DNA of 32,386 nucleotides from Candidatus Woesearchaeota archaeon (GTDB lineage: Archaea > Nanobdellota > Nanobdellia > Woesearchaeales > GW2011-AR4): assembly GCA_016192955.1 (NCBI GenBank), contig JACPTD010000016.1, positions 1-32,386 of the forward strand. Reading direction: 5' to 3'. Shown piece after piece: positions 1,628 through 25,318 of this stretch (positions are counted from its first letter, which is position 1; each line of letters opens with the position of its first letter). The notes below the pieces were generated by a model. That model was given only the letters and a program-made list of their open reading frames with translations, did not search any database and was not told the origin of the DNA. The position numbers and the translations under genes were made by a program.

Positions 1628-1690
1628 AACGGATAATACGAAAAATTTATATCCACACTCTTTACTTAATTCTTTAAAAAGAGGCATTAT

Positions 1691-1732
1691 AGCAAATCAC
1701 ACAAATATTTGAGCATAAAAATGTGATTTGCT
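1691..1732. repeat. Stem-loop element a (11-bp perfect stem, 20-nt loop)
   Basis: AGCAAATCACA at 1691-1701 is the exact reverse complement of TGTGATTTGCT at 1722-1732, with an AT-rich 20-nt loop. It lies between the propeller gene and the pilin-like block. TATA-like TTTATATC (1646-1653) sits upstream, so the hairpin could lie in the 5' leader of the downstream operon or be a 3'-end signal of the gene before it. It resembles elements b-d in design. Confidence 0.7.
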
Positions 1733-1781
1733 TATTACGAACGAGCAGGTATTGCTCAATTAATTATGCGAGTGAGTATAG

Positions 1782-10093: not shown

Positions 10094-11926
10094 TTGGTTA
10101 AGTTCATACATACAAAAAAAGAGGAGAAAGCAGCTGATAAATCCAAAACAAGAGATTCAATACTGCGCAAAATAGAAGACAAATTTCTCCATGGGCATCC
10201 GGAAGCCAAGCCAAAGGACAAGAAAGTTGAAGAGCACAGGCGCAGCTTGTTCGGCGTATTCAAGGCTTTTCAGTCAAAAAAAGCCCAAGAAAAAGAAAAC
10301 ACTGAGGTAAAAGGCATAAGCGCCGTGCATCTGCCTGCAACTGAAAAAAGTGAGATAAAGGTCACTGGGCTGCCGCCAATTGTGCCAAAAGAGGAAACTA
10401 AAACCAAGGAAGAACCGAAACGCGGCGTATTGCCTGCTAAAAAAGAGGACGTAAAAATACTTGCAACATACAACTTTGTTTCTGACAACATACCAATAAC
10501 AATCAATATATACAAAAAAAAGGGCGAATTCGTGCCTATATATGATGTGTCGATATCAAGCATAAGCAAGACAACTGAGATAATCCTTGAGAAGATAAGG
10601 GAGGAATTGACAGCGCAGGTAAGCCTGGGCATGGTTGACATTCTGCAAACAAAAGACACAGGAGTCATAGAGCAAAGGTTCATGGATGCAATAACAAATC
10701 TTGTCAGCAAGCATTTTCCTGACGCTGATGAAAAGACAGAAAACTTTTTGAAATCCTACCTGATACAAAGAAGCCTTGGGCTTGGAAGCATTGAAATCCT
10801 GATGGACGACGTGAACCTTGAAGAGGTGGCAATAAATGACGCTGAAGATCCTGTATGGGTATATCATGTGAAGTTCGGCTGGCTGAAGACAACAATAATG
10901 CTTGCAAGCGAAGAGCAGACAAGGCACTATGCAACAATGATTGGCAGAAGGGTTGGGCGCCAATTGACAATTTTAGAGCCGTTAATGGACGCCCATCTTA
11001 AAGGCGGCGACAGGGTGAATGCAACTCTCGAGCCCATATCTGTAAAGGGCAACACAATAACATTGAGAAAATTCGCAGCCAAGCCATGGACTATAACAGA
11101 TTTCATACAGGACAGCACAATCTCGCCGGAAGCGGCTGCATTGATATGGCTCGGAGTGCAATACGAGCTTTCAACACTGATTTCAGGAGGAACCGCAACC
11201 GGAAAAACTTCTATGCTTAACGTGGTGGCGAATTTTTTTCCTCCAAACCAAAGGGTGATAAGCATAGAAGACACAAGGGAAATCCAGCTGCCAAAATTCC
11301 TGCACTGGGTTCCCATGGTCACAAGGCTTCCAAATCCTGAGGGCAAGGGCGAGGTTTCCATGCTCGACCTTCTTGTGAATTCATTAAGGATGAGGCCTGA
11401 CAGGATTATTGTCGGCGAGATAAGAAGGAAAAGGGAAGCTGAAGTGCTGTTTGAGGCCATCCACACGGGCCATTCTGTTTATGCAACAGTGCACGCAAAT
11501 GACGCGCATGAGACGATAACAAGGCTCACAAATCCTCCTATTGAGATTCCGAAATCCTTGCTGCCTGCCATATCCATGATAGTTGTCCAGTACAGGAACA
11601 GGCGAACAGGGGTAAGAAAAACGTTCCAGATAGCTGAAATACTCCCCGATGCAGAGCCCAATGTGCTTATACAGCTTGACATAAGAAAAAGCATCCTGAA
11701 AAAAGTCGCAAACTCAAAAGCCCTGCTGGGCACAATAGAGCTATTCACAGGATTCTCAAGAAACGAGCTGAGCAGGTCTTTAACAGAAAAAGAGGCTGTG
11801 TTGAAATGGCTTGTAAAAAATAAGATTAACACTGTTGACACTGTTGGAAGGGTAATGGCGGAGTATTACACAAACACTGACAATTTGATGGCTCATGTAA
11901 GAAAAAACAAGCTTCTTGGTGATTAA
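10094..11926 (+). CDS. Type II/IV secretion system ATPase (TadA/VirB11/PilT superfamily)
   Basis: This 610-aa cytoplasmic hexameric motor hydrolyses ATP to drive pilus assembly. Residues 1-115 are a charged, probably disordered extension. A mixed N-terminal domain follows (SLGLGSIEILMDDVNLEEVAI), then the RecA-like core. Walker A is GGTATGKT at ~365-372, the Asp box SIEDTREIQL, Walker B-like RIIVGEIR at ~437-444 and the His box HTGHSVYATVHAND. The start is TTG at 10094, chosen because GGTGTGAT (10084-10091) is the only good ribosome binding site. The two TadC-like genes follow at 20 and 37 nt. No peptidase gene (EppA/PibD) is in view. Confidence 0.93.
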   Translation: MVKFIHTKKEEKAADKSKTRDSILRKIEDKFLHGHPEAKPKDKKVEEHRRSLFGVFKAFQSKKAQEKENTEVKGISAVHLPATEKSEIKVTGLPPIVPKEETKTKEEPKRGVLPAKKEDVKILATYNFVSDNIPITINIYKKKGEFVPIYDVSISSISKTTEIILEKIREELTAQVSLGMVDILQTKDTGVIEQRFMDAITNLVSKHFPDADEKTENFLKSYLIQRSLGLGSIEILMDDVNLEEVAINDAEDPVWVYHVKFGWLKTTIMLASEEQTRHYATMIGRRVGRQLTILEPLMDAHLKGGDRVNATLEPISVKGNTITLRKFAAKPWTITDFIQDSTISPEAAALIWLGVQYELSTLISGGTATGKTSMLNVVANFFPPNQRVISIEDTREIQLPKFLHWVPMVTRLPNPEGKGEVSMLDLLVNSLRMRPDRIIVGEIRRKREAEVLFEAIHTGHSVYATVHANDAHETITRLTNPPIEIPKSLLPAISMIVVQYRNRRTGVRKTFQIAEILPDAEPNVLIQLDIRKSILKKVANSKALLGTIELFTGFSRNELSRSLTEKEAVLKWLVKNKINTVDTVGRVMAEYYTNTDNLMAHVRKNKLLGD

Positions 11927-13952: not shown

Positions 13953-14009
13953 TTTATATATTAGTTATTCAATTTGTATTCAAAATAAAATTATTTTAAA
14001 AAGAAGGTG
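13953..14009 (+). promoter_or_regulatory. Pilin promoter (TATA box) and ribosome binding site
   Basis: TTTATATA at 13953-13960 gives an expected transcript start near 13983. GGTGA (14006-14010) is the ribosome binding site for ATG 14016. A separate strong promoter fits the need for far more pilin than assembly proteins. Confidence 0.6.
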
Positions 14010-14015
14010 AAATTA

Positions 14016-14465
14016 ATGAAAATTACCACACAACATAAAAAAGCCCAAGCTGCAATGGAGTTCCTGATGACTTATGGCTGGGCCATACTTGTCGTGCTTG
14101 CTGCAATCGCTGCTCTTGCTTATTTTGGCGTTTTAAGCCCAGAGAAATTTTTGCCAGAGAAATGCATTTTGCAGCCTGGAATCGCTTGTGTCAGCCACAA
14201 GGTAGAGCCTTCAAAAGTCACGCTTGTCATATCAAACGGCATGGGAAGGACAATGATAATAAACAGCATAACTGTAGGGAGCTGCAGCGGCACATTCAAC
14301 CAGACATTGCTTAGCGGAACTGATTATACATTTGTAGTAGGGGGAGCATGCAACAACGGCATCTCAAAGGACAAATTCAAGGGGGATATAACCTTAGCTT
14401 ACACTGAAAAAGACACTAACCTTACCAAAACAGCATTTGGCAATCTTAACACAAAAATTGAGTGA
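14016..14465 (+). CDS. Class III signal peptide pilin 1
   Basis: The 149-aa major-pilin candidate begins MKITTQHKKA then QAAMEFLMTYGWAILVV. The pattern basic-Ala/QxxxE is the class III motif cut just before Q by an EppA-type prepilin peptidase, leaving Q at +1 and E at +5. The hydrophobic helix runs to about residue 38. The mature head has four Cys (CILQPGIAC near the start, two later), suggesting disulfides, and several N-T sequons. I prefer ATG 14016 over GTG 14007 because the GTG lies inside the GGTGA ribosome binding site. Its close twin follows directly. Confidence 0.9.
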   Translation: MKITTQHKKAQAAMEFLMTYGWAILVVLAAIAALAYFGVLSPEKFLPEKCILQPGIACVSHKVEPSKVTLVISNGMGRTMIINSITVGSCSGTFNQTLLSGTDYTFVVGGACNNGISKDKFKGDITLAYTEKDTNLTKTAFGNLNTKIE

Positions 14466-14492
14466 GCATTGGCAAAAAAGAAGGTGAAAATT

Positions 14493-14960
14493 ATGAGCAA
14501 AAAATCACAGGCAGCATTGGAATTCTTAATGACTTATGGCTGGGCCATACTTGTTGTTCTTGTTGCAGTAGGCGCCTTGGCTTATTTTGGGGTTTTAAGC
14601 CCTGACAAGTTTTTGCCTGCCAAATGCATTTTGCAGCCTGGAATTGCATGCTTAGACCACAAAGCAACTTTGACATCGCTTGTGGTTAGAGCCCAGAATT
14701 CTGGTGGGTATGACCTAACTGTTAATAATGTAAAGGCAACTGGTTGCACATGCCAGTCAAATCCTATAGCAGGAGATTGCACTTTACTATCAATTGGAAC
14801 AACGCTTGCAAACGGAGGAGCTGCAACATATACATTAACCTGTGCAAATTTAGGCTTATCAAAGTATAATGGGCAGTTTAACATCACTTACACCACATCA
14901 ATTGATTTAGGTGGAATTCAGCACACTAATGTAGGTCAGATAACAACAAGGATAGAATAA
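14493..14960 (+). CDS. Class III signal peptide pilin 2
   Basis: The 155-aa paralogue of pilin 1 begins MSKKS then QAALEFLMTYGWAILVV, with the same Q+1/E+5 processing site. The first ~55 mature residues are almost the same as in pilin 1 (GVLSPDKFLPAKCILQPGIA), whereas the heads differ. This fits tandem duplication with diversification of the exposed part. ATG 14493 is preceded by GGTGA (14483-14487). The in-frame TTG at 14469 would add eight residues and ignore that site. It is probably co-transcribed with pilin 1. Confidence 0.9.
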   Translation: MSKKSQAALEFLMTYGWAILVVLVAVGALAYFGVLSPDKFLPAKCILQPGIACLDHKATLTSLVVRAQNSGGYDLTVNNVKATGCTCQSNPIAGDCTLLSIGTTLANGGAATYTLTCANLGLSKYNGQFNITYTTSIDLGGIQHTNVGQITTRIE

Positions 14961-20817: not shown

Positions 20818-21162
20818 ATGTTGGTCAGGAACACAACAAAAGGCAGGGTTGTCCAGCGCGATGCCGAGCTAATTGAGGATATTCTATCAAAATTTATCGG
20901 CTTGATGTTCTCTGCAAAACAAAAAAAGGCTTTAATTTTCAAATTTGACAAGGAAAAGGTGATTGCACTGCATATGCTTTTTGTTTTTTACCCGATAGAT
21001 GTTTTATTTCTGGACAAAGGCAAGATTGTCGTGGATAAGAAAGAGAATTTCAAGCCATTTGCATTTTACAATTCCAGGAAAAAGGCGATGTACGCAGTTG
21101 AATTGCAGAATGAAGCTATAAAAAAGTCTAAAACAGGAGTAGGCGACAAAATTGAATTTTGA
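20818..21162 (+). CDS. DUF192 (UPF0127) family protein
   Basis: The 114-aa protein shows the DUF192 pattern: GLMFSAKQKKALIFKF, then MLFVFYPIDVLFLDKGKIV, then AMYAVELQNEAIKKSKTGVG and a closing DKIEF. The family is a small beta-barrel-like domain whose role is not established. Many members are exported, but this one lacks a signal peptide. Length is typical for the core domain. It is transcribed alone, converges on the 115-aa gene, and is followed 10 nt later by stem-loop element b. Confidence 0.85.
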   Translation: MLVRNTTKGRVVQRDAELIEDILSKFIGLMFSAKQKKALIFKFDKEKVIALHMLFVFYPIDVLFLDKGKIVVDKKENFKPFAFYNSRKKAMYAVELQNEAIKKSKTGVGDKIEF

Positions 21163-21171
21163 TTTATAGTC

Positions 21172-21203
21172 AGCCACAAAAATAATTGGGTATAGTTGTG
21201 GCT
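21172..21203. repeat. Stem-loop element b (8-bp stem, 16-nt loop)
   Basis: AGCCACAA (21172-21179) pairs with TTGTGGCT (21196-21203) just after the DUF192 stop. The loop begins AAATAATT, similar to the ACAAAGTAATT start of elements c and d. Confidence 0.65.
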
Positions 21204-21209
21204 TCCTAA

Positions 21210-21259
21210 TAGTCGACAACAAATCATAAATAACACCTAATTACTTTGTTAGTCGACTA
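21210..21259. repeat. Stem-loop element c (14-bp stem with one bulge, 21-nt loop)
   Basis: TAGTCGACAACAAA (21210-21223) pairs with TTTGTT-A-GTCGACTA (21245-21259, one extra A). The right arm encodes the last residues YSRLTK of the minus-strand 115-aa protein. Its minus strand shares the 13-mer AACAAAGTAATTA with element d. Confidence 0.75.
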
Positions 21260-21588
21260 TATTTCATATTTTTGAATAAAATTGATATAAAGCATGCCAG
21301 CAAGTACACCAAAACCAAATTCAACGCAAAAGCCACCGGGTTGAACAAAAAGCCCCCAAACCTGCCAAAATATTCTCCAAGAAAAAATTTATTTGCGTTG
21401 CTAGAAGCCCCTTCGATGCCCCCTGTTATCATGTATTGAAAAGGAAATCCGTGGGCGTTGTAGCAAAATGCGAAGAAAAAGCTTACTGCGCAAACGCTTT
21501 CTTTTGCAAAATAGGAGTATACAATGCCTATAAACAAAAATATTAATATTTTAAGGCCAGATGGTTTTAAGAACTCTTTTACATTCAT
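21241..21588 (-). CDS. Small integral membrane protein, unknown function (115 aa)
   Basis: I do not recognise a family. There are hydrophobic segments at about residues 13-28 (ILIFLFIGIVYSYF), a possible short one at 30-45 and a long one at 82-106 (FNPVAFALNLVLVYLLACFI). Between them lies a loop with CYNAHGFPF and FFLGEYFGRFGGF. The last residues SRLTK come from stem-loop element c, so the original C-terminus may have been replaced. A minus-strand TATA-like TTTTAAATA (about 21610-21618) suggests a leaderless transcript. It is a single-gene unit. Confidence 0.6.
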   Translation of the reverse strand: MNVKEFLKPSGLKILIFLFIGIVYSYFAKESVCAVSFFFAFCYNAHGFPFQYMITGGIEGASSNANKFFLGEYFGRFGGFLFNPVAFALNLVLVYLLACFISILFKNMKYSRLTK

Positions 21589-21644
21589 AAAAAATGAAGA
21601 ATATCTTTTCTATTTAAAATTTTGCAATAAGCAAATCAACAACC

Positions 21645-21652
21645 TTTAAATA
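21645..21652 (+). promoter_or_regulatory. TATA box of tRNA-Trp
   Basis: TTTAAATA lies 26-33 nt before the mature tRNA 5' end, a typical archaeal tRNA promoter position. Confidence 0.55.
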
Positions 21653-21677
21653 ACTAAAACAAATTCTCTATGTTGGC

Positions 21678-21840
21678 GGGGACGTCGTATAAAGGAGCAA
21701 TCCGTACAACCTGGTTATTATCGCCGGCTCCAGTATTGGAGCGTTGAGCTTTTAGCGATGAAAGAAAATTGGCGATACCGGCTGATCTTTGCAAGAAATT
21801 GCTAAGAGTCGAAATCAGAGTTCAAATCTCTGCGTCCCCA
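21678..21840 (+). tRNA. tRNA-Trp(CCA), intron-containing
   Basis: Acceptor GGGGACG (21678-21684) pairs with CGTCCCC (21833-21839), with discriminator A. The T arm is CAGAG-TTCAAAT-CTCTG (21816-21832). The D loop is AACCTGGTTA. Anticodon stem GCCGG (21723-21727) pairs with CCGGC (21778-21782), giving loop CT-CCA-G...A, anticodon CCA. A 43-nt intron at the usual 37/38 site is 21734-21776; its start (TGGAG) can pair with CTCCA. Two more stretches do not fit a mature tRNA: ~17 nt between acceptor stem and D loop (about 21687-21703) and ~28 nt in the variable region (about 21787-21814). Removing all three leaves ~75 nt. Identity as Trp is fairly sure; the extra insertions as introns are not. I could not fit clean bulge-helix-bulge motifs to them. 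No CCA tail is encoded. Confidence 0.75.
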
Positions 21841-21867
21841 TTTTCTCCATACAAAAAATCAGCAAAT

Positions 21868-23928
21868 CTAATAATAAACTTCCTGTTCTTTGTTTGTTTC
21901 TTCGCTTAAATCCTTATTATTGCCTTGCAAGTATTTAATAACCCCGAAAGATAGGCCTATTAAAGCAAGTATAATGGCAAATCCTATCAAAATCGCTTTT
22001 AAAATGGCTTTGAGACTTGCGCCCAGCAATCCTCTTTTTGCCACAATGACATCCCCTTTTAAATGAATCTGCGCTAATGCCTTTTCATTGTCCTTGATTG
22101 TAACAACAAACGTCTGCTCGCCTATCGCGTTCCCTTTTGAGGAAGCATACAGGTATATTGTCTTTGACTCTTTTGGCTTTATGATAAAGGCGTTTGACTC
22201 CTTCAATCTCAAATCAGCCCAGTTTGCGCCATCCATAAGCAAGGTGTAAGTTTTTGCATCATTCCCCTCATTTGTTAAAATCAGAGGGTATATTACCTCG
22301 CTGCCGTCATTTTTCATGTTTTGTCTTAATAGGGGCGCATTTATCACAAGCCTGTCACTCACAAACTGCCTGGCTTGATCACTCTTGCCTAGAATAAAAA
22401 CAGGAAACTCCTTGACTTCGCTCTCGCTTCCAGACTGGGAAACTATCTCCAGCCTTAGGGTGTAAGTTCCTGTCGGCACATTATCAGAAATTTTCAGCGC
22501 AAAATCTTCTTTTGCTTCAGGAAGCTTGCTGTTTTTAATGTTGCCTAAAAACTTTGTTGATGAAACTTCCAGCTCCGGTATGCTGATCTTTGCGCTTATG
22601 CCGTCAAGGGGAACAACTCCAAGATTTTTAAAATTCAACGTCACAACAAGCGATTTGCCTGCTTCTGCATTGCCCTCAGGGCTTAGTAAAACGCTGCTTA
22701 TAATGAAAGGAAATTTCTTCTGGCTTATTTTCAGGCCGTAAAGCTTCTCTTCTGAATTTCCCTCTGCATCAATAACTTTTACCCTGAGCTTGAAGCTGTT
22801 TTGCTCAAATTGTCCTATCAAAGGCAGCTCAAGGTCTTTAACTGTGTTTTGTCCATCGAGCACGTCAAATGTTGTCGTGGCATCTGCAACAACATCCCCA
22901 TTTTCAAATGCAAGCACAGCGTCAACATGGGCATCCTCAACATCCTCAAGAGATGTAAGCCTTACTTTCAGGTTGAGCTTTTTTTCGCCTTGGTCTATTA
23001 CGACAAAATTATTCTCGCCTTCTGCCAGAATCTTATTTTCAACCTCTACATTGTCTATCGAAACGTCCAAAGCCCTGCCGCCTGCGCCGCCAGCTGTTCC
23101 ATCCCTTCCACGCATTTGCATGCCGTATGTCTGCTGAACAAAATCCCCTTCAGCATCAATAATTTTAACGGTTAATTCAAAAGAATTGCTTTGCCTCAGC
23201 CTGTCTATAAGCTCCAGCCTGAGCCCTCTTGCGAGGGTATTGCCGTCTTGCAGATTGAAATTTGGAGACGAGTCTGCAATAACATTGCCGCTCCTCAAGT
23301 CCCTAAGCACAGCTTCGACACGGGCATTTTCCAGGTCTTCCAGAGCAGTAAATTCAACCAAAACATCAAAATTATCGCTTTCATCAATGAAATTTGGACT
23401 CGATTGCGCAACAACCCTGCCATTTACCCTTACCCTGTCTATTGAGACGTCAAAGGTGCCCCTTCCAATCCTTCCGCCTGTGAACCTTAAGCCGTAATTT
23501 TGCGTCCTTGTATTGCCATCTGCGCCAACAACTCTTATATCAAGCCTAAAATCGCTCTGCCTTCTGAGCGAATCTATAAGACGAAGGCTTAACGCCACTA
23601 CGCTGCTTTGGTTTGTCCTCAGCAGGAAAGTGCCGCTTGAATCGGAAATTGTATTGCCGGTGCTTGAGTCTGTTAAAACAGCCTCGACATGCACATTTGA
23701 AATATCATTTAGAGCTGTGAGGCTTACAACGACATCCAAATCGTTTGTGTCTTGCAGAAAGTTTGTCCTGTCCCGTGCAAAAGTATTGCCATTTACCCTT
23801 ACCCTGTCTATTGAGACGTCAGATGCGGAAAATGAGTCAGATGAAGCAGCAAGGGCATAGGGCGCACTGCTAAATAAAATTCCAAAAGCCAGCAAAAATG
23901 CCGTCAAAGCAAAAATCTTTTTATTCAT
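21868..23928 (-). CDS. Putative S-layer protein with three internal repeats (686 aa)
   Basis: A clean signal peptide (residues 1-27, ending APYALA) is followed by three ~120-residue Ig/CARDB-like repeats, each opening DVSID-V-V (about residues 37, 161 and 289). Each has the pattern LEDLENARVEAVL, then ADSS, then KIIDAEG. Two more beta domains follow, the second with NEGNDAKTYTLLMDGA (COG1470/NEW3-like). A C-terminal membrane helix (about 640-662) and an acidic tail complete it. This layout matches proteins called putative S-layer proteins in DPANN archaea (family knowledge). It should form or anchor the cell envelope lattice. Two repeat starts share 35 identical bases. It is a single-gene unit facing away from the tRNA. 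Confidence 0.75.
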   Translation of the reverse strand: MNKKIFALTAFLLAFGILFSSAPYALAASSDSFSASDVSIDRVRVNGNTFARDRTNFLQDTNDLDVVVSLTALNDISNVHVEAVLTDSSTGNTISDSSGTFLLRTNQSSVVALSLRLIDSLRRQSDFRLDIRVVGADGNTRTQNYGLRFTGGRIGRGTFDVSIDRVRVNGRVVAQSSPNFIDESDNFDVLVEFTALEDLENARVEAVLRDLRSGNVIADSSPNFNLQDGNTLARGLRLELIDRLRQSNSFELTVKIIDAEGDFVQQTYGMQMRGRDGTAGGAGGRALDVSIDNVEVENKILAEGENNFVVIDQGEKKLNLKVRLTSLEDVEDAHVDAVLAFENGDVVADATTTFDVLDGQNTVKDLELPLIGQFEQNSFKLRVKVIDAEGNSEEKLYGLKISQKKFPFIISSVLLSPEGNAEAGKSLVVTLNFKNLGVVPLDGISAKISIPELEVSSTKFLGNIKNSKLPEAKEDFALKISDNVPTGTYTLRLEIVSQSGSESEVKEFPVFILGKSDQARQFVSDRLVINAPLLRQNMKNDGSEVIYPLILTNEGNDAKTYTLLMDGANWADLRLKESNAFIIKPKESKTIYLYASSKGNAIGEQTFVVTIKDNEKALAQIHLKGDVIVAKRGLLGASLKAILKAILIGFAIILALIGLSFGVIKYLQGNNKDLSEETNKEQEVYY
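23418..23821 (-). repeat. 35-nt identical direct repeat inside the S-layer gene
   Basis: The bases 23418-23452 and 23787-23821 are identical; both encode the DVSIDRVRVNG repeat start. Surrounding repeat units have diverged, so either conversion or strong constraint keeps this segment the same. Confidence 0.75.
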
Positions 23929-24020
23929 TATGCTAAAGCGGGAATGTGTTGCCCTTTTTAAAGTTTTCGTTATTGGAGAGTAGGTACAAATTTAGTCATT
24001 TTAGAATGTGCCTTGCATTA

Positions 24021-24028
24021 GGTATATA
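24021..24028 (+). promoter_or_regulatory. TATA box of the geranylgeranyl reductase-like gene
   Basis: TATATAAA lies ~28 nt before ATG 24053 with no ribosome binding site, fitting leaderless initiation. Confidence 0.5.
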
Positions 24029-24052
24029 AACAATAAATAAACACCAAAATCC

Positions 24053-25183
24053 ATGATAGCAATAGTCGGGGCTGGTCCTGCAGGCTCTTATCTTGCTTAT
24101 CTGCTTGCAAGGCAGGGCAAAGATGTGACAATATTGGAAGAGCATGACAGGATTGGGAGCCCTGTCCAATGCACAGGCATTGTCACCCATTCAATTGAGA
24201 AATTCTTCAAGTTAAAAAATGAGGTTATAGCAAAAAGGCTTGACAAAGTGGTTGTTGTGGGCAAAAGCAGCAAAATAAGCGTAAATGTTGATGAGATTGT
24301 CATGTGGCGCGACAAATTTGACATGTTTGTTGCTGAAATGGCCCAGGATGCAGGAGCCAAGATTCTGCTGAATCACCGATTCATTGGCTTTGATGGAAAG
24401 CAGTCAATAAAAGTAAAAGACAGGAAAAACAGCAAGCTGAAAGAAATAAAGGCAGATATAATTGTGGGGGCTGACGGCCCTTATTCTGCTGTTGCAAATG
24501 CTGCTGGAATGGGCTCAAATTCAAAAAATTATATTGGCATGCAGGCTAAAATAAGGCTAAAAATGGACACAACTGCATTTGAAACTTATTTTGGCATTGA
24601 TTTTCCAAACTTTTTCGGATGGGTTGTTCCTGAAAGCGAAGACACGGTAAGGCTTGGAATAGGCTGCTTTGAAAATACCAAGGAATATTTCTATAAATTC
24701 CTTAAAATGAGAACAGGCAAAAAAGACATTTTATGCTGGGAAAGCGGCTTAATTCCTTTATACAACCCAAAAAAAACAATACAGAAAGGCAATGTATATT
24801 TAATCGGCGACGCCGCAACCCATGTTAAAGCCACAACAGGAGGAGGCATAATACCATCGCTTAAGGCAGCGCACACATTATGCGACTGCATTGCCAGCAA
24901 CAAAAACTACAACAGGGAATTCAAAAGGCAGTCTGGAAAAGAACTCCTTTTGCATTTAAGGCTAAGAAATATCCTAAACAAGTTCTCTGACAATGACTAT
25001 GGCAAGCTACTGAGCCTGATGAGCCAGGAAAAGGTTAAAAAAATATTGAAAAAGTATGACAGGGACACGCCAATACCCTTGCTGGCTAATCTGCTGCTTA
25101 AAGAGCCAAGGTTTTTATTATTGCCAACCACAACAATACTTAAAAATTTTTGTGGTTGGAAAGGTAGCCGAACAACAAAGTAA
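24053..25183 (+). CDS. Geranylgeranyl reductase-family FAD-dependent oxidoreductase
   Basis: The 376-aa protein starts with the Rossmann FAD motif GAGPAG (residues 6-11). The family's PVQCTGIV segment comes next (~43-50), then GADGPYSAV (~138-146) and IGDAATHVKATTGGGI (~251-266), which close the FAD site. In archaea this family saturates geranylgeranyl chains of ether lipids (digeranylgeranylglycerophospholipid reductase), a membrane-associated step. The substrate here is inferred. Length is slightly short, and the C-terminal domain looks trimmed. The last residues SRTTK and the stop codon lie in stem-loop element d, so the C-terminus was probably remodelled by that repeat. Confidence 0.82.
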   Translation: MIAIVGAGPAGSYLAYLLARQGKDVTILEEHDRIGSPVQCTGIVTHSIEKFFKLKNEVIAKRLDKVVVVGKSSKISVNVDEIVMWRDKFDMFVAEMAQDAGAKILLNHRFIGFDGKQSIKVKDRKNSKLKEIKADIIVGADGPYSAVANAAGMGSNSKNYIGMQAKIRLKMDTTAFETYFGIDFPNFFGWVVPESEDTVRLGIGCFENTKEYFYKFLKMRTGKKDILCWESGLIPLYNPKKTIQKGNVYLIGDAATHVKATTGGGIIPSLKAAHTLCDCIASNKNYNREFKRQSGKELLLHLRLRNILNKFSDNDYGKLLSLMSQEKVKKILKKYDRDTPIPLLANLLLKEPRFLLLPTTTILKNFCGWKGSRTTK

Positions 25184-25215
25184 TTATGCATTATCAATTG
25201 TTTGTTGTTCGGCTA
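25165..25215. repeat. Stem-loop element d (15-bp perfect stem, 21-nt loop)
   Basis: TAGCCGAACAACAAA (25165-25179) is the exact reverse complement of TTTGTTGTTCGGCTA (25201-25215). The left arm encodes SRTTK at the end of the oxidoreductase; the stop codon opens the loop. The loop length (21 nt) and the 13-mer AACAAAGTAATTA are the same as in element c. Confidence 0.85.
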
Positions 25216-25318
25216 TATTTGCAAAAATGCTTTTTGCTTAAAGCTTAACTTGAACCTTTGCGTTTTTCCTCTATAAGCACTTCTTGATTTCTGACATATA
25301 TTCTATACCACATAAAAG

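Follow-up and report, generated by a model that had tools for sequence, protein, structure and literature searches.

The window analysed here, a 32,386-nt stretch from the genome of a member of the Candidatus Woesearchaeota (1.2 Mb, 84% complete), contains three units (c, d and 1688-1780; Table 1) that very probably belong to a family of IS630-type MITEs, about 93-99 nt long, non-coding, apparently moved in trans and overwriting the ends of genes. The IS630 affiliation is proposed because a resident IS630-family transposon shares its ends with the commonest subfamily. The kind of element is already known; the new member, an IS630-type MITE, comes from an archaeal group that has been little studied, and the literature searched contained no account of MITEs in Woesearchaeota.

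Two-hairpin units at gene ends

The first-pass annotation of the window described c and d as stem-loops of 14-15 bp with 21-nt loops, at which a membrane protein ends in SRLTK* and an oxidoreductase in SRTTK*. Both stem-loops lie where it placed them, and both C-termini are correct by translation. The arms are TAGTCGACAACAAA and TTTGTT(A)GTCGACTA in c, and TAGCCGAACAACAAA and TTTGTTGTTCGGCTA in d, the latter being the top-ranking hairpin of the window. These are, however, only the right-hand hairpins of larger units of about 97 nt, each of which has a second hairpin of 8-10 bp immediately to the left (arms CCAACCACAA...TTGTGGTTGG in d). Folded as DNA, each whole unit is better than 200 of 200 dinucleotide shuffles (z for c is -5.9 on one strand and -6.7 on the other; z for d is -7.6). 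The 13-mer AACAAAGTAATTA shared by c and d occurs three times in the 1.2-Mb genome, each time within such a unit, and its reversed control does not occur.

Table 1. Features of the window discussed in the text
Feature	Position	Strand	Evidence or remark
Third superfamily unit, type A (commonest subfamily), 93 nt	1688..1780	-	Pattern and covariance-model matches
Purine-rich Shine-Dalgarno-like stretch AAAAAGAGG	1676..1685 (approximate)	+	Comparison with L231, L234, L240
DUF192 gene	20818..21162	+	PF02643; orthologues with empty sites
Element c, whole unit, 97 nt	21165..21261	+	98% copy with unrelated right flank; L204, L209, L213 without c
Left hairpin of c (AGCCACAA / 16 nt / TTGTGGCT)	21172..21203	+	Missed by the first-pass annotation
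Right hairpin of c (c of the first-pass annotation)	21210..21259	+	14 bp, one bulged A, 21-nt loop
Element-encoded end YSRLTK* of small membrane protein (21241-21588)	21241..21261	-	Translation
Geranylgeranyl-reductase-family FAD oxidoreductase	24053..25183	+	TIGR02032, 191 bits
Element d, whole unit, 99 nt, net insertion 97 nt	25119..25217	+	Empty and filled orthologues; covariance-model match
Left hairpin of d	25124..25159	+	Loop inverted in place relative to orthologous copy L038
Right hairpin of d (d of the first-pass annotation)	25165..25215	+	15 bp, no mismatch, 21-nt loop; loop inverted in place
Relic of original oxidoreductase C-terminus, TTTGCAAAAATGCTTTTTGCTTAA (FAKMLFA*), now untranslated	25218..25241	+	Matches C-termini of empty orthologues

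The final 20 residues of the oxidoreductase (LPTTTILKNFCGWKGSRTTK) are encoded by d, and the relic TTTGCAAAAATGCTTTTTGCTTAA sits directly to the right of d, downstream of the new stop codon. The 3' ends of ten oxidoreductase orthologues (L064-L073 and the window set) were compared, and a conservative count gives eight empty sites and two filled ones, those of the window and L066, the latter filled at the identical base. Most of the empty orthologues end in FLLF[SG]K[MV][LI]FA* or a near variant. Because the lost codons persist downstream of the new stop, d has evidently replaced the original C-terminus of the oxidoreductase with LPTTTILKNFCGWKGSRTTK.

Element c starts 2 nt past the stop codon of the DUF192 gene and supplies the end of the membrane protein on the opposite strand, orthologues of which without the element end in ..KIKIKT*, ..MSIKS* or ..LSIKS*. 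The c site is empty in the orthologous loci L204, L209 and L213, and the duplicated TA is presumed to be represented by 21165-21166 and 21260-21261. Elsewhere in the same genome (G000:C3:8465-8561), behind a different gene and with an unrelated right flank, lies a 98% identical copy of c, which likewise starts 2 nt past a stop codon. The 23 nt to the left of c (window ~21141-21164) resemble those to the left of the C3 copy (L001 ~1408-1432; GGCGACA-AA-TGA-TTTT-AT), a likeness at two unrelated gene ends that reflects either target preference or chance. In another species the site 2 nt past the DUF192 stop codon holds a different subfamily, 77% identical (L029/L212, G001:C1:126878-126976); this occupation by two subfamilies is either a shared old insertion or a recurrent target.

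The third unit is found at the other end of a gene. It ends 1 nt ahead of the ATG at 1782 and lies between the Shine-Dalgarno sequence and its start codon, separating the two. Orthologues without the unit read AAAAAGAGGTG(C/T)TG(G)-ATG, and the leaders of the empty orthologues L231, L234 and L240 are AAAAAGAGGTGCTGG-ATG, AAAAAAGAGGTGTTGG-ATG and AAAAAAGAGGTGCTG-ATG, respectively. Joined with a single TA, the window flanks give 18 nt, the same spacing as in L231. The frame at 1782-2489 resumes in another frame at 2521-2874, and its orthologues are mostly single frames of ~373-447 aa; the window copy of the 1782-2874 gene thus appears frameshifted, whether truly or by assembly error.

Insertion at TA is shown by d and the 1688-1780 unit, each of which, compared with its empty orthologues, fits one additional TA; the comparison was made on draft MAGs, in which a single locus may be mis-assembled. 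The units have hence inserted at a TA that was duplicated or, equivalently and indistinguishably here, carry one terminal TA of their own.

Other features of the window were recorded alongside the units. At 21672-21840 there is a tRNA-like gene that ARAGORN did not detect and that contains a long insert (GGGGACGTCGTATAAAGGA...GTTCAAATCTCTGCGTCCCC), and similar tRNA-like genes adjoin the DUF192 gene in L210, L211, L212, L216 and L218. A large protein encoded at 134-1615 contains many copies of the propeller-like repeat DIYMYDLSTNQERQIT. Two tandem genes at 14007-14960, downstream of a secretion-ATPase-like gene (10094-11926), encode near-identical N-termini (QAA[ML]EFLMTYGWAILVVL), which are probably archaeal pilin/archaellin-type signal sequences.

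A dispersed family and its likely transposon partner

The genome-wide covariance-model search suggested by the first-pass annotation was run with a model built from 20 copies, and further copies are present: it gave 16 matches in the own genome and matches in 18 of 20 congeneric genomes, with up to 41 in one, figures that include a few places twice, once per strand. The own genome was covered by searches and by samples of individual stretches. Three close copies are present in the own genome, and a DNA search recovered full-length copies of ~74-85% identity in congeneric genomes. The pattern TATACTCACN{15,40}TTCGTAATA occurs in 42 of 381 relatives, spanning 23 genera; the reversed control gave one match. 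Twenty-one matches to the exact end pattern in IMG/VR contigs were taken as chance, those listed being without the family hairpins and the second half. The first-pass description of the element as mobile or copied is thus upheld by the dispersed copies, the 98% copy of c and the orthologous empty sites.

Two hairpin halves of ~47 nt, inverted and diverged, make up each unit, whose outer ends are TATA(C/G)... and ...(G/C)TATA. Terminal inverted repeats are present and imperfect: TATAGTC/GACTATA in c, TATTGCC/GGCTATA in d, alike in the two units, and TATACT../..ACTATA in type A. The last is the largest subfamily, with the layout TATACTCAC-hairpin-GTTCGTAATA-AGTAAAGG..hairpin..CCTTTACTATA; ends of the c/d type read TATAGTC(A/G)..CAACAAAGTAATTAGGTG. 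With a length of 93-99 nt, the units are short, non-coding, multicopy and dispersed, as MITEs are.

IS630-type (DDE_3) genes are encoded in 38 of the 381 relatives, and three are present in the own genome. One IS630-family element, G000:C26:2405-3466 (L255:1906-2967), is 1062 bp long with TA at both termini and two overlapping transposase frames. These frames match the first and second halves of NF033545 (IS630 family transposase, NCBIfam) with 66 and 73 bits; taken singly, neither split frame reaches the whole-protein cut-off of 100. Their HTH_32/HTH_33 and DDE_3 domains score above the Pfam cut-offs. The right end of the element (TATAGTAAGTGACATAAGTTTTTAGACA) is identical to the type A end TATAGTAAAGGACACAAGTTTTTAGACA at 25 of 28 positions, ungapped from the first base. 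Its left end (TATACCTAGTGACATAAGTATTTATACAA) is identical to the type A end TATACTCACGGACAAAAATAATTATACAA at 22 of 29 positions, ungapped from the terminal TATAC. The null maximum for such a match, over 2169 positions in four DDE_3 loci, is 18 of 28. The C/G asymmetry between the outer ends is also the same in the IS and the MITE. On these end matches, the C26 element is the likely partner of the type A units. The pneumococcal RUP was assigned to IS630-Spn1 by the same end-sharing argument (PMC2229807).

Among the 20 DDE_3 loci examined, no transposon had ends that convincingly match those of the c/d type. The c/d subfamily and type A have the left unit (TATACTCAC...TTCGTAATA) and insertion at TA in common, from which we infer that the former too belongs to IS630. 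DDE_3 was found in four of 20 genus genomes and many copy-carrying genomes are without it, so most copies may be relics.

A mechanism can be outlined on this basis. An IS630/Tc1-mariner transposase would bind the ends of a unit in trans, move it and paste it into a TA dinucleotide, which would be duplicated. Where that TA lies at a gene end, translation would run on into the element until its first in-frame stop codon, and the residues so encoded would become the new C-terminus. Replication-linked template switching within the hairpins would homogenise the stem arms and occasionally flip the loops, and could have produced the inverted loops of d and with them the motif shared at both stop codons. 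A MITE would need no host function at the 3' end.

Loop inversion, stem pairing and alternative explanations

Within the unit, the shared 13-mer points one way in c and the other way in d, a consequence of the in-place inversion of both d loops. Compared with the orthologous copy L038, the left loop of d is identical at 14 of 16 positions when inverted and at 9 of 16 as it stands, and the right loop at 20 of 21 and 13 of 26, respectively; flanks and hairpin order are unchanged, and both loops are reverse-complemented in place. In L060 the left hairpin is inverted. Template switching between hairpin arms homogenises the arms and inverts the spacer (PMC8604942), keeping stems paired (PMC8794818). 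Element d carries both signs, perfect arms and inverted loops, and we infer that template switching caused its loop inversion. As a result of the flip, AACAAAGTAATTA reads toward the stop codon on the plus strand in d and on the minus strand in c. The two genes thus owe their common peptide ending to a chance combination of landing site, frame and flip, with no shared design.

The first-pass annotation took the differing yet paired stems as a sign of selection on structure. The covariation is real and far above that of slid controls: 88.5% of cells are paired, and double changes occupy 32 cells against 14.1 after shuffling (score 0.157 versus 0.094). The conclusion drawn from it is only partly supported, since template switching can yield pairing without selection and d bears its signature. 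A structured non-coding RNA or riboswitch-like element whose RNA pairing is under selection would also explain the covariation, yet neither the number of pairs with double changes (7) nor that of pair types (16) rises above the shuffled expectation, an Rfam scan of the window gave zero matches, and copies lie on either strand relative to tandem genes (18 in the same orientation, 27 opposite). Nor do G-U pairs exceed A-C mismatches on one strand (0 versus 8 in the first hairpin and 7 versus 7 in the second, a weak count as the register of the first hairpin of type A is ambiguous in the TCGCAT subgroup), leaving RNA-level selection through a G-U excess unsupported; such a balance is expected if pairing acts as DNA or persists by template switching. 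DNA-level recognition or template switching suffices for the covariation, and we regard an RNA element kept by selection as most improbable. A kissing pair of loops was considered and set aside: the loops are truly complementary, the longest complementary run between them averaging 7.0, against 4.7 for shuffled letters and 6.1 for re-paired elements (maximum of 500 shuffles, 7.0). Complementarity scarcely above that of re-paired elements is best read as the halves being inverted copies.

The first-pass annotation also proposed a 3'-end module with a role in termination, stability or processing. Such a module would have spread by selection for a function at gene ends. The stable hairpins and the start of both c and its C3 copy 2 nt past a stop codon suit such a module. 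Its predicted clustering within ~10 nt of stop codons is absent from the 92 catalogued copies, placed against simple reading-frame calls: 11 of 75 neighbouring 3' ends lie within 10 nt of an element, as do 12 of 72 5' ends. Within 25 nt there is a mild excess (36 of 75 3' ends, 24 of 72 5' ends), perhaps an effect of less accurate start-codon calls. An overlap of more than 45 nt with a predicted reading frame is seen in 17 of the 92 copies. For the 85 copies with genes on both sides, the gaps are tandem in 52 cases, convergent in 17 and divergent in 16, close to the mix of other gaps in the same loci (61, 17 and 22), and the window copy 1688-1780 is in a 5' leader. Most oxidoreductase orthologues are without the element altogether. 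The functional half of the proposal fails because the copies do not favour gene 3' ends, the finding set beforehand as counting against it, and selection for a gene-end role is a very unlikely cause of their spread.

Mobility by another route is the claim of a third explanation, in which the units are REPIN/BIME-like inverted palindrome doublets and their mover is a RAYT- or IS200-like Y1 (HUH) transposase that acts on single-stranded hairpins. The anatomy of REPINs (PMC3116915) is indeed present, with two inverted hairpin units, a variable centre and dispersed, extragenic copies. Y1_Tnp is weakly associated with the pattern (22 of 42 pattern-bearing genomes, 109 of 339 others; Fisher p 0.015), and in L104 a Y1 gene and a copy are ~100 bp apart. 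However, Y1_Tnp (PF01797) is absent from the own genome (84% complete), from G001 and G010, which have five and eight pattern matches, and among the listed matches for G065, G215 and G292. Only one of the 18 Y1 matches in the genus is near a unit, and the other Y1 genes examined have no adjacent copy, save L110 at ~0.9 kb. REP-type TnpA is unreported from archaea, where only subclass 1.1 (IS200-type) has been observed (PMC6006769), and the unit ends match IS630, contrary to a Y1 mover. Movement by Y1 is therefore improbable, and the IS630-type MITE remains our preferred reading.

Other modules, most of them beginning with TGTCG (TGTCG...GACA) or CAAAG (CAAAG...), are present in 26 of 75 type A copies at one central junction, TTCGTAATA^(A/G)G(T/C)AAA, in either orientation and sometimes nested. 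Modules at the central junction of type A and type B units, in several layers, were seen in L047, L056, L076, L082, L087, L096, L098 and others, and no target duplication is evident around the modules inserted at these centres. The unit centre could conceivably be a site-specific docking point and the units a recombination platform, at which a dedicated recombinase recognising single-stranded hairpins keeps loading and inverting modules and so rewriting gene ends, though we consider this unlikely.

Related elements and significance

Several families of small bacterial elements resemble the woesearchaeal units; the comparison is by description. RUP, mobilised by IS630-Spn1, is ~107 bp long, non-coding and intergenic, inserts at TA and has ends in common with a resident IS630 (PMC2229807). 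The woesearchaeal units differ from it in being archaeal, in forming a hairpin from each half and in carrying nested inserts at the exact centre. The Correia/NEMIS elements of Neisseria (~107-155 bp) have TA termini, occur with or without an internal insert and become fused to reading frames (PMC2229807), but pair end to end, whereas the woesearchaeal halves fold separately. CIR of Caulobacter and Brucella likewise consists of two hairpin arms and a linker (PMC2229807) but has no known transposon partner. REPINs and BIMEs are also extragenic, dispersed, inverted doublets of hairpin units (PMC3116915), from which the woesearchaeal units are set apart by a genome without RAYT, by ends that match IS630 and by their TA target. 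Rickettsia palindromic elements (RPE) are palindromic, MITE-like and add residues to host proteins (PMC10969869); RPE fusions are in-frame within proteins, while the woesearchaeal residues are terminal and incidental.

In a DPANN archaeon, the units provide a documented case of miniature transposons overwriting protein C-termini as well as a ribosome-binding site, the proof being the filled and empty sites. They also show that covariation among mobile copies is no proof of RNA function, as template switching can give stems that differ yet remain paired. For annotation, they are a warning: protein ends such as SRLTK or SRTTK come from the element.
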